64,000 bases of DNA from Microcaldota archaeon (lineage in GTDB: Archaea > Micrarchaeota > Micrarchaeia > Micrarchaeales > Micrarchaeaceae). The notes under the pieces were generated by a model, which saw nothing but the letters and a program-made list of their open reading frames with translations, ran no database searches and was not told where the DNA came from. The stretch spans positions 1-64,000 of the forward strand of contig JAKAPJ010000002.1 of assembly GCA_021807115.1 (NCBI GenBank), read 5' to 3'. Made by a program: the position numbers and the translations under genes. How positions within the stretch are numbered: position 1 is the stretch's first letter; each line of letters starts with the position of its first letter. Positions 2,673-56,443 of the stretch are shown piece by piece.

Positions 2673-3188
2673 TTGGTACTGATGGCGGCAAAGCAAAGAG
2701 CGGCACCTGCGCCCCAGAGGCGCCGTGTCGCACTGATAGTATCAGTTTCGGTAGCCATACTGACCGCCGCGCTCACGGGCGTGGTGGCGGCACTTGGCGG
2801 ATTGTCAACCATTCATTATGCGGAGATCATCGCAGCTGCAGGCGTTGCGGTCAGTGCATATGTGCTGGCGTACAAGGTGTGGGGCACGCCCCTCCTGTGC
2901 CCTCGCGGCGGACTTGTCAACTGCAAGATGGTGCTTGACAGCCGCTTCTCTGTGTGGTTCGGCGTGCCCTCCGCACTGTTCGGCATGCTGTTCTTCGCTT
3001 TTGAGCTGGTTGCATTCTACATCGGCAGCTATCCGGCAGCATTGGCAGCCGGCACGCTTGGGGTCATGTCAGTTTTCGAGCGCATACGCGCCCAGGCCTC
3101 CATAGGAAGGATATGCATCTACTGCAATGTCACCCACATATTTGCTGCATCGCTATTCTTGCTGTCCGCCTACCTCTGCGTCCATTAG
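2673..3188 (+). CDS. Vitamin K epoxide reductase (VKOR) family membrane protein
   Basis: Multiple TM segments with paired Cys (CPRGGLVNCKMVLDSRFS) and CIYC redox motif. Confidence 0.75.
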   Translation: MVLMAAKQRAAPAPQRRRVALIVSVSVAILTAALTGVVAALGGLSTIHYAEIIAAAGVAVSAYVLAYKVWGTPLLCPRGGLVNCKMVLDSRFSVWFGVPSALFGMLFFAFELVAFYIGSYPAALAAGTLGVMSVFERIRAQASIGRICIYCNVTHIFAASLFLLSAYLCVH

Positions 3189-42328: not shown

Positions 42329-42431
42329 GCGCCCCACGCATCGCCGCGAAGCTTAATATTCGCACCCGACGGATGGAGGGAGCGGCGCAGCCACAGTGAT
42401 ACCATGCACCGCAGGAACTTCGCTGATTTTA

Positions 42432-44741
42432 ATGATAACGTCGCTTGAGCTCACCAACTGGAAGACGCACAGGAACACAAAGCTCACGTTCCAGGGCGGG
42501 GTCAACGTGCTCGTAGGCATAATGGGCGCGGGCAAAAGCTCCACAACAGACGCCATATCCTACGCCCTATTCGGCAACTTCCCTTCCCTGAACAGCGGCA
42601 GGGTGGGGCTTGAGGGGATAATATCCACCCGCCCCGCCCCGCAGAGCGAGGCCGAGGTCAGGCTAGAGTTCGGCGCGGCCGGGGACAGGTACACGGTCGT
42701 GCGCAAGATAGGCGCACGCGGCAGCAGCGCGAGGCTGGAGAAGAACGGTGCGTACCTGCAGTCGCAGCCGAAGAAGGTCACCGAGGAGATAGAGCACGTG
42801 CTCAAGATAGACTACGACACGTTTTCCAGGGCGATATACGCGGAGCAGAACAGGCTAGAGTACTTCCTTGAGCTGCGGGAGGGCGAGAGGAAGAAACAGA
42901 TAGACCGCATGCTCGGCCTCGACACCTTCGCCCTCGCCGAGGCCAACTCCACCTCACTAATAAACTCCCTTAGGGCGGACATCAAGGCCCAGGAGGATGT
43001 GCTGTCCAAGATAGACATAGGGGCGATAAGGGAGCAGCTCAAGTCGCTCAGCTCCGAGAGGGACGGACTGTCCAAGGAGCAGGCCGCGCTTGCGGCAAAG
43101 GCGGAAGCGCTGAAGTCCTCATATGCGGAAACGTCGCAGCGGCTTGAAGCGATGAGGAAGGAGCTGCAGAAGCGGAAGGCGATGGAGCAGGACATAGTGA
43201 AGGCCACGGCAAGGATTGCGACCCTCAAGGCCGAGGTCGCCAAGATATCAGCCACTGTGCGCCAGGACGAAAGCGAGATTGCGGCTCAGTGCGATGCAGC
43301 ATCAAAGTCCCTGAAGGTACTGTCCTCAGAGCTCAATGTGCTCAAGGAGGCGGAGCGCTCCTGCAACAAGCAGGTCGCGGCCCTTGAGGCCGAGATGAAA
43401 CTGAACAGGGGCAAGGCGTCCGAGAGGGACAAGCTGCGCAAGGAGATGGAAGGGGCGAGCATGGACAAGGTCAAGGCAGAGCTGGACGGGGAGAGCGAGG
43501 CGCTGCAGGCCCTGCTGAAGGACACCGCCGCAAAGAGCGGCAGGCTTTCCGAGCTCCGCAGCTCGCTGCGCGAGCTGGAGAAGCACGCAAGCAAGTGCCC
43601 CATATGCGAAAGGGACCTCACGCCGGAGCTAAGGGAAAGGCTAGTGATGGACAAGACCCACGCCGCCCAGTCCGCGGAGACGGAAATAAAGGGCGCGGAG
43701 AGGCAGGTCTCCGAGCGGTCCGCACGGATCAAGAAACTTGTGGAGTCGCACAACAACCTGGTCATACTTGCCAAGAGACTGGCCGACCTTAGCGGCATAG
43801 ATGCGGCAATAGAAATAGGGGGCAGGCATATCACAGATGCTGCAGCCAGGCTCGCCAGCGCAACTGCAAAGGTCAAGGCCGCAGAGAAGGCGCTAGATGC
43901 GGCCAGGGATGAGAGCGAGCGGCTCAAGATAAACCTGCAGCACGCCCAGAGGAAGCGGTCGTACGAATCGGAGATAAACTCCGCCTCGCAGGCGCTCGAG
44001 TCCGCAAGGTCGCAGCTCGCGGGCATACCGGCGGACGACAGCGAGTTCGAGGCGCTGCAGGAGTCCAAGAACAGCCAGAACGCCTCCCTCAGCGACGCGC
44101 TTTCCAAGATTGACGGGAATTCAAGGTACCTGTCAAGCCTCTCCAAGCAGATAGCGGGGAAGGAGAAGGAGGTCGCGGACTTCTCTGGGATAGAAAAAAG
44201 GATCGGCAGGCGCAGGGCCCAGGTCACAAACCTCAACAAGTTCAAGTCCGCCCTGGTGGAGACAGAGGCCGCGCTCAGGGCGCACATAGTCGGGGCAATA
44301 AATGTCATAATGCAGGGGCTGTGGTCCAGGCTGTACCCGTATGGGGACTATGTGGGCCTGCGACTCAATGCCACAAAGGACGACTATATGTTGGAGTTCA
44401 GCCTGCCCTCCGCCTCCGCAGGCTCCGTGCCGTGGGTGCCGGTGGACAGGGTCGGCAGCGGCGGCGAACGCAGCGTGGCGGCGCTTGCCATGAGGATCGC
44501 CCTGGCAATGGTGGTTGTGCCAAATCTAAAGTGGCTCATCCTTGACGAGCCCACCCACAACATAGACTCCGCAGGCATATCCAAGCTCATAGACGTGCTG
44601 GGCACCACCCTGCCGCAGATCGTCGAGCAGATATTCATAATAACCCACGACGACGACCTCAAGCAGATAAGCTCCGCGAAGGTCTACCAGTTCGACAGGG
44701 ACAAGGCCGCCGGCGCGCCCACCTCCGTCGCACAGCTGTGA
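42432..44741 (+). CDS. rad50: Rad50-like SMC-family ATPase
   Basis: MITSLELTNWKTHRNTKLTFQGGVNVLVGIMGAGKSSTTDAISYALFG; zinc hook CPIC; GSGGERSVAALAMRIAL; LILDEPTHNID. Confidence 0.93.
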   Translation: MITSLELTNWKTHRNTKLTFQGGVNVLVGIMGAGKSSTTDAISYALFGNFPSLNSGRVGLEGIISTRPAPQSEAEVRLEFGAAGDRYTVVRKIGARGSSARLEKNGAYLQSQPKKVTEEIEHVLKIDYDTFSRAIYAEQNRLEYFLELREGERKKQIDRMLGLDTFALAEANSTSLINSLRADIKAQEDVLSKIDIGAIREQLKSLSSERDGLSKEQAALAAKAEALKSSYAETSQRLEAMRKELQKRKAMEQDIVKATARIATLKAEVAKISATVRQDESEIAAQCDAASKSLKVLSSELNVLKEAERSCNKQVAALEAEMKLNRGKASERDKLRKEMEGASMDKVKAELDGESEALQALLKDTAAKSGRLSELRSSLRELEKHASKCPICERDLTPELRERLVMDKTHAAQSAETEIKGAERQVSERSARIKKLVESHNNLVILAKRLADLSGIDAAIEIGGRHITDAAARLASATAKVKAAEKALDAARDESERLKINLQHAQRKRSYESEINSASQALESARSQLAGIPADDSEFEALQESKNSQNASLSDALSKIDGNSRYLSSLSKQIAGKEKEVADFSGIEKRIGRRRAQVTNLNKFKSALVETEAALRAHIVGAINVIMQGLWSRLYPYGDYVGLRLNATKDDYMLEFSLPSASAGSVPWVPVDRVGSGGERSVAALAMRIALAMVVVPNLKWLILDEPTHNIDSAGISKLIDVLGTTLPQIVEQIFIITHDDDLKQISSAKVYQFDRDKAAGAPTSVAQL

Positions 44742-44803
44742 TCTGGCGCGAGTATCGGAACTCTGCGGGAACGCATATAAAGTTTGCTTTAAAAGCCTTA
44801 TTC

Positions 44804-47005
44804 ATGGCTAATTCGATGCCAGAGATAGCTAGTGTCAGGTACGCACGGCTAACCCAACTGGCAGCGTTGTGTGGCATTATAATAATTGCACTGGGCGCCA
44901 TGCTCCCGATGGCATATGCGGCAAACTCCGGCCAAGTAATCATAACCTCCTCAGTCTCGGTAAATTGCCCGTTCAGCATCACAATAATACCCAATGCCTC
45001 GTTCTACGTGCAGCCCCAGAACGCGATGCTCACATACAATGTGGTCACGGCCCCGCCGTGCAGCTCCACCACCGCAAACTTCCCATCTCTCAGCGGCACC
45101 CTGACGATATCGAACGCCCTCACCGACACCGTGTACTACTCCAATTCCGTGACGATATCCGGCCCGATAGGCAACGTCCCGGTGATAGGCAACATAATAT
45201 TCAACACCGCCGCCCCAAACATACCCACCTACCTCAGCGGGCCGTACTCCACCACGCTCTCCCTGTCGTATCTAGCCAACAGTTCCTCCGGCAGCAACCA
45301 GATAAACATATTCGCCCCGGCAAACCTCCTGATACAATCGCTTTCCGTCTCTCCAAATCCCGTCTCCACTCCGGGCTCCTCGGTAAGCATAAACTTCAAC
45401 GCAAACAACATCGGCGGCCTGGCGGCCACAAACATGATCCTTAATCTGGGGGTAACCGGCCCGGACGCCTTCTCGCTTTCAACCAGCATACCCCTCACGC
45501 CCAACGCCGTGGCGGCCGACAGCAGCACGCTTGAATCGATAGGCGAGTCCAGCATCACCCCCTACTCGGGCAGCTACACGCTTGTTGAAAACATAATATA
45601 CCAGTACTCATACACGTTCAACGGAGTCACAACGAACTCCCTCCTGCTCAGCACGCCCCAGGTAAGCACCCCTTACACTGTCAGTTCGACGTCTTCCGGA
45701 GGCGGAGGCGGCGGGGGCGGTGGAGGCGGAGGTGGAGGCGGAGGCGGCATAGGCCCACCACCGCCGGCGCCGCCACTCAGCATCGGGCAGATAACATTTG
45801 ACCAGCTCCCCGAGTTCACATCAGTGCTGGCCGGTGCCTCGATACTCAGCACCATCGGCATAAAGAACACGGGCAACGTGCCCGTGTGGTTCAACATAAC
45901 GCTGCCTAGCCTAAGCTTCGGCACGCTTGGCGTGTCATCAAAGGCGGTGTACCTCCTGCAGAACCAGTCCGAATACATAGACATGCTGTTCAGCAGCTTC
46001 TCCAACATGACCACCGGATCGCACATAACCCCGATAAACTTCACAATAAGCGGCAAGGGGCTCAAGACGCTGCAGGAGCAGTTCTACACCGAGCTGGGCG
46101 TCGTGCAGCCGGTGAACAACAGCGTGCAGGTGCTGCGCAGCACGATAGTTGCCAACTTCTCCAAGACTGTCATAACGCAGTACCGCATCTACAACCCCAC
46201 CAACAAGACGCTGCGCGACACGGTGCTGTCGACAATGATACCCGGCACCGCAGTGCCAAACATTCAAGACATAAAGCTGTCCGGCGAGGTGAGCAACGTG
46301 GAATTCATCAACGGGCAGTACCTGCTGAGCTGGACCATACCTGCGCTGCAGCCCGGCCAGGACAACATATTCACCTACACCATAACGAACAGCACCGACC
46401 TTACGACCTTCTTCAACGCGCAGACGGAGTTCGCCATACCCTCGCAGGTCAATTCCACACGGCTGAGGATATTCGACATCTCCATCCCCTCTTTCTACGT
46501 CAACCAGACATCCGCCATAACCGTCGACTGGGTATACAGCGGCATAAACGCAACCAACATCACCATGGCCCTGATATCTCCGCCCACAATAGGCGTGCAG
46601 GTGCCAATATACACATACAAGGTCGTGCCCAACGAGTTCGTCACTACGAAGTTCGTGATAAACCCCATACCACTTTCAGGCACGTACATATTCCAGCTCA
46701 ACACCAAGGGACCATTCCCAAACCAGACATACTCCCTGCCGGTTGTTGTGGCTGGCATATCCACGCCCTCCGGCAGCCAGCTGCAAAGCACTCCGACCAC
46801 GTTCGACCTTGGAGCCCTGCTTAGGGACACGTCATATGTACTATTAGCGGCACTCCTTGTCGCAGCTTTTATACTTATCGTTCGTATCGCTTATCAGAGG
46901 ACGCGCCGCGCAAGGTACGACCTGCTGCGCGCACAGAAGCTTAGGATAATCCAGCAGAGAATCAAAAGGGAGGGCGAGAGCCAGGGAGGACCGCCTGGCC
47001 CGTGA
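44804..47005 (+). CDS. Secreted/TM surface protein with poly-Gly linker
   Basis: N-terminal signal, SSTSSG17IGPPPPAPP linker, beta-rich extracytoplasmic domains, C-terminal TM SYVLLAALLVAAFILIV. Confidence 0.8.
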   Translation: MANSMPEIASVRYARLTQLAALCGIIIIALGAMLPMAYAANSGQVIITSSVSVNCPFSITIIPNASFYVQPQNAMLTYNVVTAPPCSSTTANFPSLSGTLTISNALTDTVYYSNSVTISGPIGNVPVIGNIIFNTAAPNIPTYLSGPYSTTLSLSYLANSSSGSNQINIFAPANLLIQSLSVSPNPVSTPGSSVSINFNANNIGGLAATNMILNLGVTGPDAFSLSTSIPLTPNAVAADSSTLESIGESSITPYSGSYTLVENIIYQYSYTFNGVTTNSLLLSTPQVSTPYTVSSTSSGGGGGGGGGGGGGGGGGIGPPPPAPPLSIGQITFDQLPEFTSVLAGASILSTIGIKNTGNVPVWFNITLPSLSFGTLGVSSKAVYLLQNQSEYIDMLFSSFSNMTTGSHITPINFTISGKGLKTLQEQFYTELGVVQPVNNSVQVLRSTIVANFSKTVITQYRIYNPTNKTLRDTVLSTMIPGTAVPNIQDIKLSGEVSNVEFINGQYLLSWTIPALQPGQDNIFTYTITNSTDLTTFFNAQTEFAIPSQVNSTRLRIFDISIPSFYVNQTSAITVDWVYSGINATNITMALISPPTIGVQVPIYTYKVVPNEFVTTKFVINPIPLSGTYIFQLNTKGPFPNQTYSLPVVVAGISTPSGSQLQSTPTTFDLGALLRDTSYVLLAALLVAAFILIVRIAYQRTRRARYDLLRAQKLRIIQQRIKREGESQGGPPGP
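45698..45748 (+). repeat. Seventeen consecutive glycine codons (GGN) in CDS
   Basis: ggaggcggaggcggcgggggcggtggaggcggaggtggaggcggaggcggc. Confidence 0.95.
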
Positions 47006-47027: not shown

Positions 47028-47855
47028 ATGGACAAGCCGTACATAATAAGGGTGTCGTCGCAGAAGGGCGGGGTCGGCAAGACGACGCTTTCCGTGAACA
47101 TCGCAACCGCCCTTGCGCTGATGGACTATCGCGTGCTGCTGATCGACGAGGACCCCACAAATCCATCCGTCGGATTCTATCTGGGCCTGGAGGATGTCAA
47201 CATAGGCTACAAGGACGTGCTGCTTGAGAAGGTCGACATAAAGAAGGCTATAATAAAGCACGAGGCCACTGGAATGTACGTGCTGCCCGGAGTGCCGTAT
47301 CTAAAGCCCTACATGCCTGACGAGGACCAGATAAAGAACCTCGTTGATCAGGTCAAGAAGATGGAAAACTACGACTTCATAGTGTCTGACACCCCGCCCG
47401 GCTTCTACATAGGCGAGATAGGCAAGATATACAACGAGGCGATCATAATATCCACCCCGGACATGTCCGCCATAACCAGCTGCATAAGGCTTGCCGAGAC
47501 GTACAACAAGGACAACGTGCCGCACAGCCTTGTGGTGAACAGGGTGCGCAACAAGCGCTACGAGCTGAGCATAAAGGAGATGGAGGACTCGTACGGCGCC
47601 GCGGCCGCCGCCGTGCTGCCCGAGGACGACATAGTCCCGAGGAGCGTGGCAGTGCACGTGCCGGCATACCTAATGGATCCCCACGCACCATTCTCCATGA
47701 AGATAGGGATGCTTGCCAGGTCATACGTCGCGAAGAGCGGCCAGCCCGTGAGGCAGGTGGAGGACATCGCCATGGCGTCGCAGCGCGCGCCTGCAGGCGG
47801 CAAGGTGGGCCTGTCATACATAATCAACTGGATACGCGACATACTTGGCTTCTGA
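47028..47855 (+). CDS. MinD/ParA-like P-loop ATPase
   Basis: IIRVSSQKGGVGKTTLSVNIATALALMDYRVLLIDEDPTNPSVGFYLG; VSDTPPGF. Confidence 0.85.
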   Translation: MDKPYIIRVSSQKGGVGKTTLSVNIATALALMDYRVLLIDEDPTNPSVGFYLGLEDVNIGYKDVLLEKVDIKKAIIKHEATGMYVLPGVPYLKPYMPDEDQIKNLVDQVKKMENYDFIVSDTPPGFYIGEIGKIYNEAIIISTPDMSAITSCIRLAETYNKDNVPHSLVVNRVRNKRYELSIKEMEDSYGAAAAAVLPEDDIVPRSVAVHVPAYLMDPHAPFSMKIGMLARSYVAKSGQPVRQVEDIAMASQRAPAGGKVGLSYIINWIRDILGF

Positions 47856-47950: not shown

Positions 47951-48490
47951 ATGAACTGCATGGCGAGGCCTAATTCTCGTTCTGCCCAAATCCGGGCGTC
48001 AGCAATATCCCTCTTCATATCGCTGTCCGCCACGCTGCTTCTCATGTTCATGCTGCTCAGGCCAGCGTACGGCGCAGGCGCCCCATCCAACGCAATAGGC
48101 ATAGTGAATGTCATGTCTGCATGCTTCATATCACTCAACCCCAATACAATAAACTTTGGGCAGATAGAGCCCAGCAGCAACGTCCCCACAAACCAGCTGG
48201 TCCAGGACGCCGATGCGGGAGGCAACGTGCAGTCGAACATGCTCATAACCGCCACGAACTGGATATCCGGTCCAAATAGCTTCTATGTTGCCAATACATT
48301 GTGGGACTCTACGAACGACCTGTCGTATTTGGGCAATTCCCTGCCCCTCTACCCTTTTCAGACATTCACCCCGATATTAGTGCCCTTCGGCCCGTCCACT
48401 TCGGCAAACGTATACTTCGGGCTCGCGATACCTGCTAGCCAGGCAGTAGGCATATACACCCAGAACATAGTGATGGAAAATAGCTGCTGA
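47951..48490 (+). CDS. Small secreted 'C-terminal Cys' family protein, paralog A
   Basis: Signal; SACFISLNPNTINFGQIEPSSN...; NVYFGLAIPASQAVGIYTQNIVMENSC*. Confidence 0.82.
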   Translation: MNCMARPNSRSAQIRASAISLFISLSATLLLMFMLLRPAYGAGAPSNAIGIVNVMSACFISLNPNTINFGQIEPSSNVPTNQLVQDADAGGNVQSNMLITATNWISGPNSFYVANTLWDSTNDLSYLGNSLPLYPFQTFTPILVPFGPSTSANVYFGLAIPASQAVGIYTQNIVMENSC

Positions 48491-48587
48491 ATCCCGCCGC
48501 TGCGCCCGGCGTAGCAGACGACATTTACCATATGATTGCCATGAAACCCGACCACAGCAAATTGAACTTGATTACTTCCGCAAATGA

Positions 48588-48604
48588 GAAATATTTAAAT
48601 ACCT
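48588..48604 (+). promoter_or_regulatory. Putative BRE/TATA promoter upstream of paralog B
   Basis: GAAATATTTAAATACCT, matching the element at 47906-47923. Confidence 0.5.
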
Positions 48605-48620
48605 GCACAATTAATGTTAG

Positions 48621-49199
48621 TTGACGCGCATGAATAACGGGAAGCGGCTACGCGCCGGAAGGGCAGAGATCATCGCATCGCTGCTAGCGTTTGCATTGTC
48701 TTTCTCCGCTGTCATGCTGTTCCTAGTGCTCGGCGCAGGTAGGGCGTCTGGCTACACTGCGACAACCAACACGGTTGGAGTGGTCAATGTCCTTGGAACG
48801 TGCTTCATATTCCTTACCCCAAACATAATAAACTTCGGAAGCATAGAGCCCGGCTCAAACAGCGGCATAGCAAATGTAGTAACAGACAACGACCTTTTCG
48901 GTAACGTCAACGCGAACATGATGCTTTACGGGACAAACTGGTGCGCACCGAACCTGTCGACATGCTCGAACACGTTCCAGGTAACAAATACGGCCTGGAA
49001 CCCGACATCGAACACACTCTTCTACCCAACAGTGGGCAACCAGCTGCAGTTGCAGGCCGCGATGGCCGACACCGGCATAGTCGTGGGTTTCGGTTCGGCG
49101 GCGCAGCCGGGGTCCAACGTGTATTTCGGGGTCGCAATACCTCCAAGCCAGCCGCTTGGCCTATATACGCAGAACATTATAATAGAGAATTCATGCTGA
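48621..49199 (+). CDS. Small secreted 'C-terminal Cys' family protein, paralog B
   Basis: GTCFIFLTPNIINFGSIEPGSN...; NVYFGVAIPPSQPLGLYTQNIIIENSC*. Confidence 0.82.
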   Translation: MTRMNNGKRLRAGRAEIIASLLAFALSFSAVMLFLVLGAGRASGYTATTNTVGVVNVLGTCFIFLTPNIINFGSIEPGSNSGIANVVTDNDLFGNVNANMMLYGTNWCAPNLSTCSNTFQVTNTAWNPTSNTLFYPTVGNQLQLQAAMADTGIVVGFGSAAQPGSNVYFGVAIPPSQPLGLYTQNIIIENSC

Positions 49200-49211
49200 A
49201 GGTGTAATACG

Positions 49212-49874
49212 ATGCAGAAGCAAAACAATGTAAGGATGTCGCGCACTGAACTGCTGGCAGTGGCAGTCGTGGCAGTGGCCACCTTCTCCGTATTCCTTGC
49301 GCTTGCCTTCAACCTTGACTTCATACCGCTTGCAAGTGCGGCATACAACTCGCCTTCAAACGTGGTGGCAACCGCCAACGTGCTTTCCATATGCTTTACT
49401 GTGCTGACGCCCAATGGGCTCAATGGGTACCAGGTGATAACCCCGGCCAACGTTGCAAACGACCTAGTGTTCGGCGGCGGAGTGTTCGGCGGCGGCACCA
49501 ACGGGATAAGCCCGACCTTCAGCGTGCCTACCTCAGTGCAGCTCATAGACAATGACATAGGCGGCAACGCAAACGCCAACGTGCTGATAGCCGGATCCAA
49601 CTGGTTCCAGGTTACAAACTCCGCAAATACGTTCTACGAGTACGGCAACATACTGTGGAACCCCGTGACCTTAGGCACCTTCAGCGGCAATGACCTCAAC
49701 CTATACAACGGGCAGTCTGCATCGCTTGGCGCAACAAACATATTCATAACAGCCCCGGCAGTCCCATCCCCGACCAACGGTGTGGCTGCCAATATATTCT
49801 TTGGCCTCCAGATACCGTTCGGCCAGCAGTTGGGCATCTACTACGAGAACATAGTGGTAGAGAACAGCTGCTGA
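49212..49874 (+). CDS. Small secreted 'C-terminal Cys' family protein, paralog C
   Basis: MQKQNNVRMSRTELLAVAVVAV leader; ...NIFFGLQIPFGQQLGIYYENIVVENSC*. Confidence 0.82.
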   Translation: MQKQNNVRMSRTELLAVAVVAVATFSVFLALAFNLDFIPLASAAYNSPSNVVATANVLSICFTVLTPNGLNGYQVITPANVANDLVFGGGVFGGGTNGISPTFSVPTSVQLIDNDIGGNANANVLIAGSNWFQVTNSANTFYEYGNILWNPVTLGTFSGNDLNLYNGQSASLGATNIFITAPAVPSPTNGVAANIFFGLQIPFGQQLGIYYENIVVENSC

Positions 49875-49928
49875 AAAGTGGGCAAAAGGATATAAGGATG
49901 CAAGAATCAATGTAGATTGGATGATGTA

Positions 49929-50840
49929 ATGGCTTCTGTGGCAGGGCGCATAATAAAGCCAAGCCACGCAGTTCTACTTCTGGCTATTCTTGCCGCATTA
50001 GTGCCATTGGCCTACGGGCAGATAGGCGAAGTCGCCGGCCAGCTCAATTTCCAGATTCAGGTGGGCCACAGCCAGACGCTTACTCTAACCGTGCTTAACG
50101 AGGGATCGACCCCGATAGGCTTCGCGGTGCTCGCACCCAGCGGCTCTCAGCTGCAGGTAACATCAGCTAGGAACTCTACAGTGGGCCAGACAAGGCCTAC
50201 CATCGTCGTATACCCTATGAACGGTACAATACCTGCCAGGGGGGCTGCAACCATAAACGTTACGGTGTCCATGCCCCTCAACGACACCCCAGGCAAGGCG
50301 TCATACGAGGGCATAATTCAGGTGCTGCAGTCCTCGAACCAGACAAACCCGGGTGGCGCAGTGCTTCAGGAGGGCGTAGCCAAGATATTCTCGGTTGGCG
50401 CCATACCATCCACCACCACGACAACATCCGTGACCACCACAATACCCGGCGTGACTGCCACAACGGCATCCGCGCTCTCATACACCACCTACCTCATACC
50501 TGTCATATGGCTTGCAATAATCGTGCTGATACTTTGGTATCTTACCGCTGTCAAGCGGTTCATAAGGGCAGGCGGCAAGCCGGCAAGGCTGTTCAAGGGT
50601 GCACCGTCCAAGGCTGCCGCAGGCAGGTCCGCAGCGGCGCGGGCGCAGCCGGGCAGGGCTGCCTCAAGGAAGCGCGGCGCAGCCGCCAAGGCAACTCCCA
50701 AGGGCAAGAAGGCATCTTCGGAGGCAAAGGAGCTCCAGAGGCAGATAGCAGAGCTGAAGAGGCAGAACGCCGCACTGCAGAAGAGAGCAAAGACCGCGCC
50801 AAAGGCCGGCCGCGGCGCCAAGAAGGCCAAGAAGCGCTGA
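49929..50840 (+). CDS. Surface protein: beta domain, Thr/Ser stalk, TM, Lys/Ala/Arg-rich cytoplasmic tail with coiled coil
   Basis: GQLNFQIQVGHSQTLTLTVLNEGSTPIGFAVLAPSG...; TTTTTSVTTTIPGVTATT; LIPVIWLAIIVLILWYL; basic tail ...EAKELQRQIAELKRQNAALQKRAKTAPKAGRGAKKAKKR. Confidence 0.8.
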   Translation: MASVAGRIIKPSHAVLLLAILAALVPLAYGQIGEVAGQLNFQIQVGHSQTLTLTVLNEGSTPIGFAVLAPSGSQLQVTSARNSTVGQTRPTIVVYPMNGTIPARGAATINVTVSMPLNDTPGKASYEGIIQVLQSSNQTNPGGAVLQEGVAKIFSVGAIPSTTTTTSVTTTIPGVTATTASALSYTTYLIPVIWLAIIVLILWYLTAVKRFIRAGGKPARLFKGAPSKAAAGRSAAARAQPGRAASRKRGAAAKATPKGKKASSEAKELQRQIAELKRQNAALQKRAKTAPKAGRGAKKAKKR

Positions 50841-50935
50841 CCCCAGCGCACCCAGTGCACACTGCGACATGGCGGATGCCAGTCGGTTCCGCAAATAAGC
50901 AACGTTTAAAAAGGTAAGTTGCAAAATAGATATCG

Positions 50936-51496
50936 ATGCTAATGCCGGCAAAAAGAAACAATATGGTCGCCGTGACAACAGTTGCGGTATCATTCCTGAT
51001 GGCTGCATCCATACTTGCGGAGTTCGCCATGCTCCAGGCATACGCATTCTCCAATGCCTCCTCCGTGAACGTGATCAATGCTATGATCACGGTAACCGGC
51101 AGCTGCTTCATATCGCTGAACACCAACGTGATAAATTTCGGCCAGATACCTGCCGGCAGCAACACGGCCCGCACCCTCAATGACATAACCGTCAACGACC
51201 CGTTCGGCAACATCGCGGCTAACGTGCTGATTTCCGGCACTAACTGGATATCTACGTCCAGCTCCGCAAACTTCTTCGTGTCAAACACGATATGGAACCC
51301 GACCAATGACTTCCTGGCTAACGGCAATGCGCTGTTACTGTTCCCGAGCCAGCCCACCGACACAAAGATAGAGATACCGGCTCCCAACGTAATCAACCCA
51401 AATACCGACAACCTGATATATTTCGGGCTGTACATACCTACGCTCACCGCACTTGGCGTATACACACAGAACATAGTGCTTGAGAACAGCTGCTGA
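50936..51496 (+). CDS. Small secreted 'C-terminal Cys' family protein, paralog D
   Basis: GSCFISLNTNVINFGQIPAGSNTARTLNDITVNDPFGNIAANVLISGTNW...LGVYTQNIVLENSC*. Confidence 0.82.
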   Translation: MLMPAKRNNMVAVTTVAVSFLMAASILAEFAMLQAYAFSNASSVNVINAMITVTGSCFISLNTNVINFGQIPAGSNTARTLNDITVNDPFGNIAANVLISGTNWISTSSSANFFVSNTIWNPTNDFLANGNALLLFPSQPTDTKIEIPAPNVINPNTDNLIYFGLYIPTLTALGVYTQNIVLENSC

Positions 51497-51498
51497 CG

Positions 51499-52068
51499 GT
51501 GCAGAACATGCAATATAAAAACAACGCAAGGATGTCGCGCGCTGAACTGCTCGCATTGGCAGCCGCCGCGGTTGTCGCATCCTCCGCCATACTTGCGACT
51601 GTGCTAAACTTCAGTGCAGTGGGCCTGGCCCTGGCCGCTACCAGCGGCACGTCCAACGTGCTTGCATCCGCCAACGTCATAGCCAGCTGCTTCATAAGCA
51701 TAAGCGACAACCAGATAAACTTCGGCAACGTCCCGGCAGGCGGAGACACGTCGACCACCCTGAACGCGATTACCGTCAACGATCCGTTCGGCAACGCGCC
51801 GGCAAACATATTCCTTTCAGGCACCTCCTGGAACGGGCCGTTAACCGCAAACTTCCAGGTGACCAACACACTATGGGCGAGCGCCGACGTTACGCTTTCA
51901 TCCGCCACCGAGCTGACCAATACGTTCGTGGACACCGCGATACAGATAGCGGCACCTAACACCGTAGTGACCAGCCCAGGCAACTTAGTCTACTTTGGCG
52001 CAAACGTACCGAAAGTCATGCCAACTGGCGTATATACGCAGAACATATTCGTCGAAAACCAGTGCTGA
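51499..52068 (+). CDS. Small secreted 'C-terminal Cys' family protein, paralog E
   Basis: NNARMSRAELLALAAAAV leader; ASCFISISDNQINFGNVPAGGDTSTTLNAITVNDPFGNAPANIFLSGTSW...GVYTQNIFVENQC*. Confidence 0.82.
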   Translation: MQNMQYKNNARMSRAELLALAAAAVVASSAILATVLNFSAVGLALAATSGTSNVLASANVIASCFISISDNQINFGNVPAGGDTSTTLNAITVNDPFGNAPANIFLSGTSWNGPLTANFQVTNTLWASADVTLSSATELTNTFVDTAIQIAAPNTVVTSPGNLVYFGANVPKVMPTGVYTQNIFVENQC

Positions 52069-52105
52069 GCCGCGCACGCCCAGCACCTGCTTCACGGGGC
52101 TTACC

Positions 52106-52507
52106 ATGCACTTGGACAATGGCACGCTTCTGACCATAGCATTCGTAGTCGCATCCTCCGTATTCATGCTCGGCGCCTTGTTGCATAACGCCCCTTCGCA
52201 GGCATCGCGCGGCAATCCGTATTCGGTTAATGCTACAATGCTGTCAGCACAGCAGTGCAATGGCTACTGCTGGGCAGGCTACTCCATAGGCTCCATATAC
52301 ATAAGGGCGGTGAACGCACAGAACGTCACGGGCACCATAATGTACAATTCGATAGGGGTGGAGCTCGGCATGCCAATCACAATAATGCCCGGCACCTACG
52401 TCTCTGACTGCCAAGGCCACACAATCAGCATATCCTACATGGGCTCAGGGCGGGTGCTGTTCTCAATAGAAAGAGCAGCAGGAACCGTCCCGGCGTGCCC
52501 CGTGTAG
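52106..52507 (+). CDS. Small secreted Cys-containing protein
   Basis: MHLDNGTLLTIAFVVASSVFMLGALLHNAPS signal; QQCNGYCWAGYS...YVSDCQGH...VPACPV*. Confidence 0.65.
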   Translation: MHLDNGTLLTIAFVVASSVFMLGALLHNAPSQASRGNPYSVNATMLSAQQCNGYCWAGYSIGSIYIRAVNAQNVTGTIMYNSIGVELGMPITIMPGTYVSDCQGHTISISYMGSGRVLFSIERAAGTVPACPV

Positions 52508-52577: not shown

Positions 52578-53630
52578 CTATACCTCCTCAAGCCCGTAGG
52601 CGGAAGACTTCTCTTCCTTCGCCGCCCCGAGCACCGATGCGCCGCTTATCCCCGTGAATATCGCTATCACCGACACCATCCCGTTGTAGGACGGGTCTAT
52701 CCTCGCTCCCCAAATAACGTTGGCGTTCGGCGCAGTTATGTCTGTTATCCCCCTGCCTATCTCGTTCGCTTCGCCAAGGGTCATGTCTTCTCCTCCGGTT
52801 ATGTGCAGCAGCACCGAAGTCGCGCCCTCGTAGTTGACGTCAAGCAGCTTGTTCTTGAATGTGTCCCTGACCACGTCCTCCACCTTGCCCGAGCCCTTGC
52901 CCTCCCCAACGCTTATGAACGCCAGCCCCCCGCCCCCCAATATCGACTTTATGTCTGCGAAGTCTATGTTTATCAGGCTTGGCGTGTTTATCGCCTCAGT
53001 TATGCCCCGCACCGCCCTGGACGTCACCTCGTCGGCCACCTTGAAGGCCTGCTCCATGGCCAGGTTAGGGTAGAGCGTAACCAGCCTCTGGTTGTCTATC
53101 ACAATGAGCGTGTCCACATGCTTGCTGAGCTCCTCCACGCCCTTCTGCGCCACCTGCAGCCTAACCCTCTCCAGCGCGAACGGCACAGTAACTATGCCTA
53201 TGACTATCGCGCCAGCGTTCCTTGCGACCTCCGCCACAACCGGCGCAGAGCCCGTGCCAGTGCCACCTCCCATGCCCGCGGTCACGAACACGAGGTTGTA
53301 GTCGCGCAGCGCGTCCTCTATCTCATGCTTGGAGAACATGGCAGCCTTGGCGCCTATCTCGGGGAAACCCCCGGCCCCCATGCCGCGCGTAAGCTCCCTG
53401 CCTATGAGTATGCGCTTTATGGCCGGGTCCATCATCTTGAGGTGGTTCGCGTCGGTGTTCACCGCAACGAGGGTTGCGCCGCGTATGCCCATCTTCGACA
53501 CCCGCTGCACGGTGTTGCTGCCCCCGCCGCCGCACCCGCACACTGCTATCTTAGTCCTGAACAGGTCCGAGTCCGCCATAGCGGGGTTCAGCGCACTTTG
53601 CACTATGTCGTCAGCCAAGCAAGCACCCAC
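52578..53630 (-). CDS. ftsZ: Cell division GTPase FtsZ
   Basis: VCGCGGGGSNTVQRV, NTDANHL, TAGMGGGTGTGSAPVVAEVAR tubulin signature. Confidence 0.95.
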   Translation of the reverse strand: MGACLADDIVQSALNPAMADSDLFRTKIAVCGCGGGGSNTVQRVSKMGIRGATLVAVNTDANHLKMMDPAIKRILIGRELTRGMGAGGFPEIGAKAAMFSKHEIEDALRDYNLVFVTAGMGGGTGTGSAPVVAEVARNAGAIVIGIVTVPFALERVRLQVAQKGVEELSKHVDTLIVIDNQRLVTLYPNLAMEQAFKVADEVTSRAVRGITEAINTPSLINIDFADIKSILGGGGLAFISVGEGKGSGKVEDVVRDTFKNKLLDVNYEGATSVLLHITGGEDMTLGEANEIGRGITDITAPNANVIWGARIDPSYNGMVSVIAIFTGISGASVLGAAKEEKSSAYGLEEV

Positions 53631-54654: not shown

Positions 54655-54934
54655 TGCTGTCTATCCGCGTCGCGCCAGATATTTAAGTATGCCCTTTTTT
54701 ACCAAAAAACTAACATTTTCCAGAATTTTGGCCTCATTTAAGGCAGCAAAACCCCAAAACCTTGCAATGGAGGTTAAGGTCCCGCCGCCAGTCATTTAGT
54801 GCCGCGCCAAATTGCAGCCAAACATAACCAACTGCAAAGTGGCATCCGCGAATCCGCCTCCGTTGGTCAATCTCCCGACGTTGTACCTTCGCATCAAACT
54901 ACGCATTATTAAATCTTCCCACAGCATCATATCT

Positions 54935-56443
54935 ATGCGTTCTGGAAAGGCGCCTCGGCGCGCGCGGTCTGCAAAAGCACAAAAGCCCAGCATCCCGCAC
55001 CAGCATCCGACCAGCGCTTCAACGCCTAGCCACATGTCTGTTGCCATAGGGCTGACTTCCACGCTAGGGAGCATATTCCTATATTTCCCGCTCCTAATGC
55101 TCGTTGTGGTCACAGGCACCAACCTGGCGACGGCCATGAGCTCCACCCCGTCGCTCTCCACATTCTCGTGCGGCGTAAAATACTGCAGCAGCATGAGTGG
55201 AATATGCCCCGTATCCTGCTCCAACAGGGTACTTACGGGGCAGACGTGCGGGATGAACGGCAAGTTCTTTGTATTCGAGTGCGAACCATCAACAAGCACA
55301 ACCATCACCAGTACCACCATCACCACCACAACCGCAACCACCACAACAACCAAAACTACTACCTCAACCACAAGCACATCATCAACCACCACCAGAACCA
55401 CCACTACCACAACCATCCAAAGCGGCGCATCGGCGTACTGCATGGGCAGCGCACCAAACGCCCCAATATCTGCCCCGCCGCACGGCATATATGCTGCATC
55501 TGACCAGGGGATAGCCAACCCAAGCGTCTGGGACTACATAACAAACACGGTGATGAAGAACAATACTGACTGCGGGCTTGTGCTACTTGTGCACTGGAGC
55601 AACATAGAGCCGCAGAAGGGCGTGTACAACTGGTCGTACATAAATCAGTCAGTGGCGCCGTTCGTGAAGGCCGGCAAGAGCGTGGCGTTCGTGCTTGTCG
55701 GGAACGAGGAGGGCACCGTGCATGAGCTTAACGGGCAGTACGACACCCCGCAGTGGGTGCTCAACAGCGTACCGTACATACCCGCGGGGGTGTGCGCCCC
55801 GTTCCCCGAGCCTGTTTTCTGGAACAAGACCTACGAGAGCGACATACAGCAGTTCGAGACCACGTTCGAGAACCACATAGCATCCAGCAGTTTCTCCAGC
55901 TCTGTCTCCTACATAAGGTGGGGGTTCACGCAGGGCGGGGAGGACGAGGTCCCGTACAGGAACAATGCCGTAGGGTCAACATGCTACAACGACTGGGTCG
56001 CGCAGGGATATTCCACGACATCATTCTCCAAGTTCATAAACGACTCCATAAACTGGGTGGGCAAGCAGAATTTCCCGTACTGGTATTTTGTAGACATGGC
56101 GCCTGTACCAGGGGGCCCGCAGGAAGCGGTTACCGCAGCAAACTGGAGCACGACGAGCAAGATAGGCCTTGCATACCAGGGACTTGCCAAGACATCATTC
56201 CCTTCGGGCTGCAGCGACCAGAGCTGGTGCGCCACGTTCAAGAAGTACCTCAACATGCCAGACGAGATGCAGTTCGCCGCAGTGGATCCGTGCACCAACA
56301 TAACCAGCGACCTGCTTACCGCCATCAGCAATCACGCATCGGTCTTCGAGCTGAACGCTGAGCCGAACAACTACGGCGACTGGTACCGGTGCGGCAACTC
56401 CGCCCTGCTTCCGCCAGCCAACATAGTCAACCCCGCCACGTGA
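54935..56443 (+). CDS. Membrane-anchored, Thr-rich-linker extracytoplasmic protein with glycoside-hydrolase-like domain
   Basis: N-terminal TM, linker STTITSTTITTTTATTTTTKTTTSTTSTSSTTTRTTTTTTI, then GLVLLVHWSNIEPQKGVYNWSYINQSVAPFVKAGKSVAFVLVG (beta/alpha-barrel GH-like). Confidence 0.7.
   Translation: MRSGKAPRRARSAKAQKPSIPHQHPTSASTPSHMSVAIGLTSTLGSIFLYFPLLMLVVVTGTNLATAMSSTPSLSTFSCGVKYCSSMSGICPVSCSNRVLTGQTCGMNGKFFVFECEPSTSTTITSTTITTTTATTTTTKTTTSTTSTSSTTTRTTTTTTIQSGASAYCMGSAPNAPISAPPHGIYAASDQGIANPSVWDYITNTVMKNNTDCGLVLLVHWSNIEPQKGVYNWSYINQSVAPFVKAGKSVAFVLVGNEEGTVHELNGQYDTPQWVLNSVPYIPAGVCAPFPEPVFWNKTYESDIQQFETTFENHIASSSFSSSVSYIRWGFTQGGEDEVPYRNNAVGSTCYNDWVAQGYSTTSFSKFINDSINWVGKQNFPYWYFVDMAPVPGGPQEAVTAANWSTTSKIGLAYQGLAKTSFPSGCSDQSWCATFKKYLNMPDEMQFAAVDPCTNITSDLLTAISNHASVFELNAEPNNYGDWYRCGNSALLPPANIVNPAT

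Follow-up and report, generated by a model that had tools for sequence, protein, structure and literature searches.

We propose that the products of five related genes in a Micrarchaeota genome are probably pilin-like subunits that are exported and build an adhesive surface fiber held together by donor-strand complementation, as judged from sequence comparisons and structure models. The best reading of the locus is an archaeal adhesive fiber that lacks an usher and would be assembled through donor strands. The genes lie within the window, the 64,000-nucleotide stretch of DNA analyzed here, beside further genes of the putative system:

44738 to 47005, + strand: p755, a large exported membrane protein with an N-terminal hydrophobic segment, Ig/CARDB-like ectodomains, a C-terminal transmembrane segment and a basic cytosolic tail; proposed fiber base or anchor
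47028 to 47855, + strand: MinD/ParA-like ATPase (minD_arch 5.3e-36, below the model's cut-off; AAA_31 6.1e-21); proposed role in fiber positioning or control
47951 to 48490, + strand: paralog A, pilin-like subunit with leader, donor strand, pilin-like domain and terminal Cys
48621 to 49199, + strand: paralog B, pilin-like subunit; TTG start, with an ATG at 48630
49212 to 49874, + strand: paralog C, pilin-like subunit; ~30 aa are inserted behind its first strands
49917 to 50840, + strand: PapD/ASH-like membrane-anchored protein with a leader, one Ig-like ectodomain, a transmembrane segment and a basic tail; candidate chaperone or base anchor for the subunits
50936 to 51496, + strand: paralog D, pilin-like subunit, the paralog modeled with AlphaFold2
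51499 to 52068, + strand: paralog E, pilin-like subunit; GTG start

A first-pass annotation of this DNA had described A to E as a tandem paralog family, and all five ORFs are indeed present on the + strand. They align over their full length (B, C, D, and E are 46, 38, 43, and 31% identical to A), with 30 invariant columns that include C58, W104, W118, G157, Y169, N172, I173, E176, N177, and the last Cys, and each closes with TGC TGA, an exact Cys-stop. The motifs reported at that time hold overall, except that E reads NVP rather than IP and C does not carry the CFISL...INFG wording. The five paralogs were also said to belong to no established family; Pfam and NCBIfam give them no match above cut-off, PDB sequence profile searches returned no above-cut-off family match, and the literature searched contained no description of this locus. 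The setting was overlooked: p755, the MinD-like ATPase, and the PapD-like membrane protein share the locus, the last of these interrupting the array between C and D as part of the same system, and the domain itself caps giant proteins.

The ~145-aa domain occurs in three architectures, namely singles of ~180 aa, doubles of ~330 aa, and the extreme C-termini of giants, which are secreted proteins of 877-2188 aa with a signal-like N-terminus and no C-terminal transmembrane segment. This genome encodes five single-domain subunits at the locus, where no giant adjoins, and giants on three other contigs. The conserved gene order is a p755-type membrane Ig protein, a MinD-like ATPase, in some cases a giant, the pilins, and the membrane-anchored PapD/ASH-like protein. 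Homologs of p755 (658-798 aa) open the locus in relatives, and the ATPase gene directly after it is likewise kept. The hydrophobic segments of p755 lie near residues 35 and 691, and its true start may be the ATG at 44807; CARDB was matched by 10 of its 20 homologs (best 2.1e-6), while a p755 profile found no relative among solved structures.

The terminal cysteine is not a product of chance. Of 76 unique proteins in the family, 75 have it as their final residue, vs 7 of 884 unrelated ORFs of at least 150 aa from the same loci. Such an exact C-terminal position could suit an inter-subunit covalent link, as the first-pass annotation had suggested, or a site of lipid attachment, but we regard either as very improbable. 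Internal and terminal Cys are retained together in 87 domains and lost together in four, the one remaining domain belonging to a truncated ORF (Fisher p=1.8e-6); this co-loss disfavors an inter-subunit disulfide. Moreover, 90 of 92 domains have no further Cys between the two conserved ones, and in two-domain proteins the closing Cys of the first domain sits internally, which fits an intradomain bond. Given the paired loss, the two residues most likely form a disulfide within each domain. Two VKOR genes also count in favor of disulfide formation, and the alternative suggestion of a disulfide-closed beta-sandwich is supported.

AlphaFold2 models paralog D as an all-beta core with pLDDT mostly >90, preceded by an unpaired N-terminal tail in which residues 38-58 join no strand. 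A fold search of the PDB with this model placed chaperone-usher pilins, whose Ig fold is incomplete, at all of ranks 1-9, with FimG (3.3e-4) and PapA (9.0e-4) followed by FimA, Csu, and others; TM-scores were modest, at about 0.37-0.46 by query and 0.46-0.56 by target. Sequence profiles gave a weak Pfam match to DUF4402 (3.4e-3; 38 family members) and no above-cut-off match to the SCPU/archaic chaperone-usher pilin family (PF05229), which 2 of the 38 members matched weakly (best E 0.19). A natural two-domain construct yielded a poor model (pLDDT 54.7) and was discarded as evidence for groove filling.

Subunits share a layout of N-terminal hydrophobic leader, short Ser/Thr/Asn-rich stretch, alternating-hydrophobic strand, and all-beta domain. 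By a loose pattern, an A-x-A-type site follows the leader in 39 of 42 subunits, pointing to signal peptidase I; type IV pilins have a class III signal peptide and retain the hydrophobic helix in the mature protein. The strand, of the form V-x-A-x-V-x-V, lies directly before the first Cys, with large hydrophobic residues at -10 (88%), -6 (71%), and -4 (98%) that are absent from giants. Comparison of 56 subunit domains with 31 giant domains gave median donor-motif scores of 12.4 and -16.5, respectively (p=2.8e-13), and core identity was alike within subunits (0.418) and from subunit to giant (0.401). The donor strand is missing from 30 of the 31 giant domains, and the exception stands second in a tandem pair and might fill the first. 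This distribution follows donor-strand logic: giants would have a groove without a donor and could only receive, and would therefore sit at the tip.

The earlier suggestion of structural subunits of a filament is supported; an envelope layer is less likely than a fiber with a tip adhesin. A related account, in which donor strands link the subunits into a lattice or matrix fiber (S-layer or TasA/thread-like) and giants act as cross-linkers instead of tips, can draw on the Ser/Thr-rich, modular make-up of the giants, which resembles that of surface-layer proteins, on Pyrodictium cannulae at rank 45 of the fold matches, and on the donor-strand assembly reported for archaeal threads (PMC9715654). 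Giants without a donor, however, could only end a chain, on one side, and the single giant per subunit set in canonical loci, with orphan giants elsewhere, fits interchangeable tips; we judge the lattice account improbable.

The fiber reading also has a candidate partner in the 49917-50840 product, which is weakly PapD-like by sequence. PapD-superfamily domains (CFAP65, Cep192_D6, ASH) were matched, below threshold, by up to 20 of its 29 homologs, and the PapD-family chaperone profile PF00345 (PapD_N) had no above-cut-off match in 21 genomes. In relatives, its gene immediately follows a pilin gene, on the same strand and with a gap of 8-102 nt in 55 hand-paired cases. The two genes share 61 genomes (table 61/10/8/167, p=6e-38), and at one locus (L057) the pilin and PapD-like genes were duplicated jointly.

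These same genes might instead form a WxL-like attachment module, in which the C-terminal domain docks giants and free singles onto a membrane-held Ig protein (the PapD-like protein or p755) and no long fiber is made. As in the WxL/Csc clusters of Gram-positive bacteria, one domain recurs in small domain-only proteins and at the C-terminus of large adhesins, beside a transmembrane-anchored Ig partner. The small number of subunit genes, 1-3 at the majority of the archaeal loci, also speaks for it. WxLIP proteins combine DUF916 and DUF3324 with a C-terminal transmembrane segment; WxLIP_PGBD (PF06030) was matched by 4 of the 29 PapD-like homologs (best 2.5e-5; DUF3324 was not among the 25 families listed), and WxLIP structures match at E about 1. 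Yet the WxL domain (PF13731) was found in none of 38 domains and none of 21 genomes, with a control match in Lactococcus lactis, and to our knowledge archaea have no bacterial peptidoglycan to serve as a WxL-type target. Such a module also leaves unexplained why the donor strand is confined to subunits and second domains and absent from giants, as well as the tandem doubles. We consider it unlikely; WxL membership is rejected by the profile search and WxL is retained as a functional analogue. For WxLIP, insertion of one of its strands into the WxL domain has been predicted (PMC10599100).

The proposed donor-strand fiber resembles chaperone-usher pili (type 1, P, archaic Csu) in its pilin-like, all-beta subunits behind an alternating-hydrophobic N-terminal extension and Cys, its putative adhesin with a C-terminal pilin domain that lacks a donor strand, and its PapD-superfamily-like partner encoded beside the pilins. 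Membership in that pathway is rejected because usher and PapD_N are both absent; the outer-membrane usher (PF00577) was found in 0 of 21 genomes, with a control match in E. coli only. The system differs further in its archaeal cell, membrane-anchored partner, putative disulfide from first strand to last residue, very large giants, and a locus that also encodes p755 and a MinD-like ATPase. Among archaeal systems, the Saci_0406 threads of Sulfolobus acidocaldarius likewise consist of an exported pilin-type subunit with a cleaved signal peptide and strand complementation (proposed here from genes and models), with a paralogous putative cap gene adjoining. They use an isopeptide bond, and the available portion of that report describes neither a giant tip adhesin nor a PapD-like partner (PMC9715654). 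Saci_0406 had no sequence match in the PDB profile searches and was not among the best 50 fold matches listed. TasA, archaeal bundling pili, and Pyrodictium cannulae also have beta-rich exported subunits and strand complementation (again proposed here), but differ in gene neighborhood, and cannulae gave only a low-ranking fold match.

In the proposed assembly, a single disulfide would staple the first strand of each subunit to its last, and the N-terminal strand of one subunit would fill the groove of the next. Giants, accepting a strand only, would serve as tip adhesins. The membrane-anchored PapD-like protein may hold or cap subunit grooves as chaperone or base anchor, p755 may form the base, and the MinD-like ATPase may place or regulate the machine. 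More tentatively, and at somewhat less than even odds, Micrarchaeota may possess an independent usher-less pilus of chaperone type, with donor-strand pilins put together at the membrane by a tethered PapD-like chaperone, a p755 base, MinD-like positioning, and interchangeable giant adhesins that recognize the host archaeon.

Cultivated DPANN archaea need contact with a host, yet few of the molecules that mediate attachment have been identified. Micrarchaeota with the locus are very small and probably rely on host cells. Observations of Micrarchaeota have shown thin filaments and filamentous contacts on the cells or close to them, not assigned to genes (PMC11329633, PMC8975820). The locus, which is conserved in two families of this order, supplies named candidates for the fiber and its base, the tip adhesin, and the chaperone. 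In diderm bacteria, which have an outer-membrane usher for the purpose, donor-strand pili with a dedicated chaperone are well documented. If our reading is true, donor-strand pili with a chaperone-like partner would have an archaeal counterpart that works without an usher.

The first-pass annotation had described a tandem family of five small secreted proteins, and all five open reading frames (paralogs A to E) were recovered where it had placed them, together with the following genes of the window.

2826-3167, + strand: VKOR-family gene; the genome has a second one
42396-44741, + strand: Rad50/SMC-like ATPase, weakly matching the zinc hook and, below cut-off, the arcadin-4 model; its gene abuts p755 directly
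44738-47005, + strand: p755, a large exported membrane protein
47028-47855, + strand: MinD-like ATPase
47951-48490, 48621-49199 and 49212-49874, + strand: paralogs A, B and C
49917-50840, + strand: membrane-anchored PapD-like protein
50936-51496 and 51499-52068, + strand: paralogs D and E
51995-52507, + strand: ORF of 170 aa that contains a hydrophobic segment and overlaps paralog E at its end; none of the fetched loci has a homolog, and the true start may lie later than the one given
52578-53630, - strand: FtsZ gene, convergent with the locus, an adjacency kept in several relatives (L046, L052, L054 and L058)
54812-56443, + strand: ORF with a Thr-rich linker, whose domain reads like a secreted glycoside-hydrolase type

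The paralogs are alignable end to end (31-46% identity to A; 30 invariant columns), all five genes end in TGC TGA, and Pfam, NCBIfam and PDB-sequence searches with them returned no match of note. An AlphaFold2 model of paralog D (38 sequences; mean pLDDT 82.8, core mostly above 90) is all-beta after the leader helix, with residues 38-58, between the leader and the first strand, in no strand. In a Foldseek comparison with the PDB, chaperone-usher pilins occupy ranks 1-9 (FimG, 3.3e-4; PapA, 9.0e-4; then FimA, Csu and others) at TM-scores that are moderate, partly because the query included the leader. Of 38 members, two weakly match SCPU, the family of archaic chaperone-usher pilins, and two weakly match DUF4402.

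This pilin-like domain also occurs outside the small proteins. With a profile built from the paralogs, five further copies were identified in the same genome (1.18 Mb, 44 contigs), one in a short ORF and four in giant ORFs of 1431 aa (two copies), 1570 aa and 1692 aa. Relatives encode it in three architectures: at the extreme C-terminus of giants (877-2188 aa), duplicated in tandem in proteins of 307-339 aa, and singly in proteins of about 170-220 aa. Sampling of the phylum gave matches in 71 of 246 genomes, most of them members of two families of the same order. One giant (L059, 10100-14443) is alone in carrying the domain internally, 339 residues before its end, so that its cysteine is not terminal. 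Other giants with a C-terminal domain lie away from the pilin locus, three in the window's own genome (L040, L041 and L042, on contigs C21, C39 and C27) and three elsewhere (L069, L070 and L072); these could be interchangeable tips. The L040 giant has two tandem domains. Also in L042 (14626-15045, - strand), a 139-aa fragment without the N-terminal half and first cysteine, yet with the terminal one, is possibly a broken gene.

All fetched loci were scanned with profiles of p755, the MinD-like ATPase, the pilin domain, the PapD-like protein and FtsZ. Typically the genes run p755, MinD-like, giant, one or two pilin genes and PapD-like, often with a convergent FtsZ following; the window lacks the giant and reads p755, MinD-like, A, B, C, PapD-like, D, E, FtsZ. 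L057 alternates pilin-PapD-pilin-PapD, and two PapD-like ORFs occur in each of L063 and L064. Across the 246 genomes, pilin and PapD-like genes occur together in 61, pilin only in 10 and PapD-like only in 8 (p=6e-38). Fifty-five PapD-like hits were paired by hand with a pilin listed for their contig, leaving out those at a contig end or lacking such a pilin; in every pair the PapD-like gene lies downstream of the pilin, on its strand, with a gap of 8-102 nt. Among 60 relatives, p755 and pilin occur together in 26, pilin only in 3 and p755 only in 4 (p=2e-9). Genomes G025, G034, G047 and G059 match p755 but, at the threshold applied, not pilin; their versions of the system may be diverged ones.

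The PapD-like protein consists of a leader (which ends near AYGQIGE), a single Ig-like ectodomain, a TM helix and a strongly basic tail. Of 29 homologs, up to 20 weakly match Cep192, CFAP65 or ASH domains and 4 match WxLIP_PGBD (best 2.5e-5), all under the curated cut-off wherever one was given; against the PDB, its profile reaches the FaeE chaperone and EfmWxLIP1 at E about 1. These matches support membership in the PapD-like superfamily generally, not in a particular family. p755 contains CARDB-like domains as well as a C-terminal TM segment and a basic tail. The giants are Ser/Thr-rich with a signal-like N-terminus and, by hydropathy, have no C-terminal TM segment, so the pilin domain is likely their means of attachment.

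The terminal cysteine, previously called invariant, is indeed kept rather than lost in most orthologs: among the 76 unique family proteins whose 3' end is intact, 75 finish exactly on it, against 7 of 884 unrelated ORFs of the same loci. Across 92 domains, both conserved cysteines are present in 87, neither in 4 and the last only in 1, the truncated ORF on C27 (Fisher p=1.8e-6, which overstates independence because the four losses may be one ancestral event). All four cysteine-less domains are first domains of two-domain proteins, in which the cysteine strand reads NVIYL and ENSC has become ENEN. This joint loss argues for a putative intradomain bond; 90 of 92 domains have no further cysteine between the pair. 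The VKOR in the window is likely part of the disulfide-forming machinery needed by secreted cysteine-paired proteins.

The 16 residues before the first cysteine were compared as a candidate donor strand between 56 subunit (small pilin-like protein) and 31 giant domains. Subunits follow a strict pattern of large hydrophobics at -10 (88%), -6 (71%) and -4 (98%), with mostly Ala at -8; the median motif score is 12.4 (leave-one-out) against -16.5 in giants (p=2.8e-13, a guide only since the sequences are related). Over the remainder of the domain, identities within and between classes are much the same (0.418 within subunits, 0.401 subunit to giant, 0.425 in the remaining comparison), so the loss in giants is specific to this strand. 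Among giant domains the motif occurs once, in the second domain of the L040 pair, whose strand could fill the first. In bacterial pili the tip adhesin's pilin domain takes a strand and offers none, and the giants would follow the same logic.

The locus product would work like a chaperone-usher pilus yet is not one, because usher and PapD_N are absent from the 21 genomes searched. Its gene content resembles WxL clusters (PMC10599100); a profile search of 21 genomes did not find the WxL family. Archaeal threads as described in PMC9715654 have the signal-peptide route and the proposed donor-strand linkage in common with the Micrarchaeota locus, without its partner proteins.

The reading best supported by the observed gene content, co-occurrence, motif distribution, cysteine co-loss and fold resemblance is that of a fibre assembled by donor strands, with a giant adhesin at its tip and a PapD-like protein, tethered to the membrane, as chaperone or anchor. 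Subunits would polymerise by donor strand, giants would sit at the fibre tip, the PapD-like protein would act as chaperone, p755 would form the fibre base and the MinD-like protein would position the machine. Filaments of unknown identity have been reported on or near Micrarchaeota (PMC11329633; PMC8975820), and one may speculate that they belong to this pilin locus.
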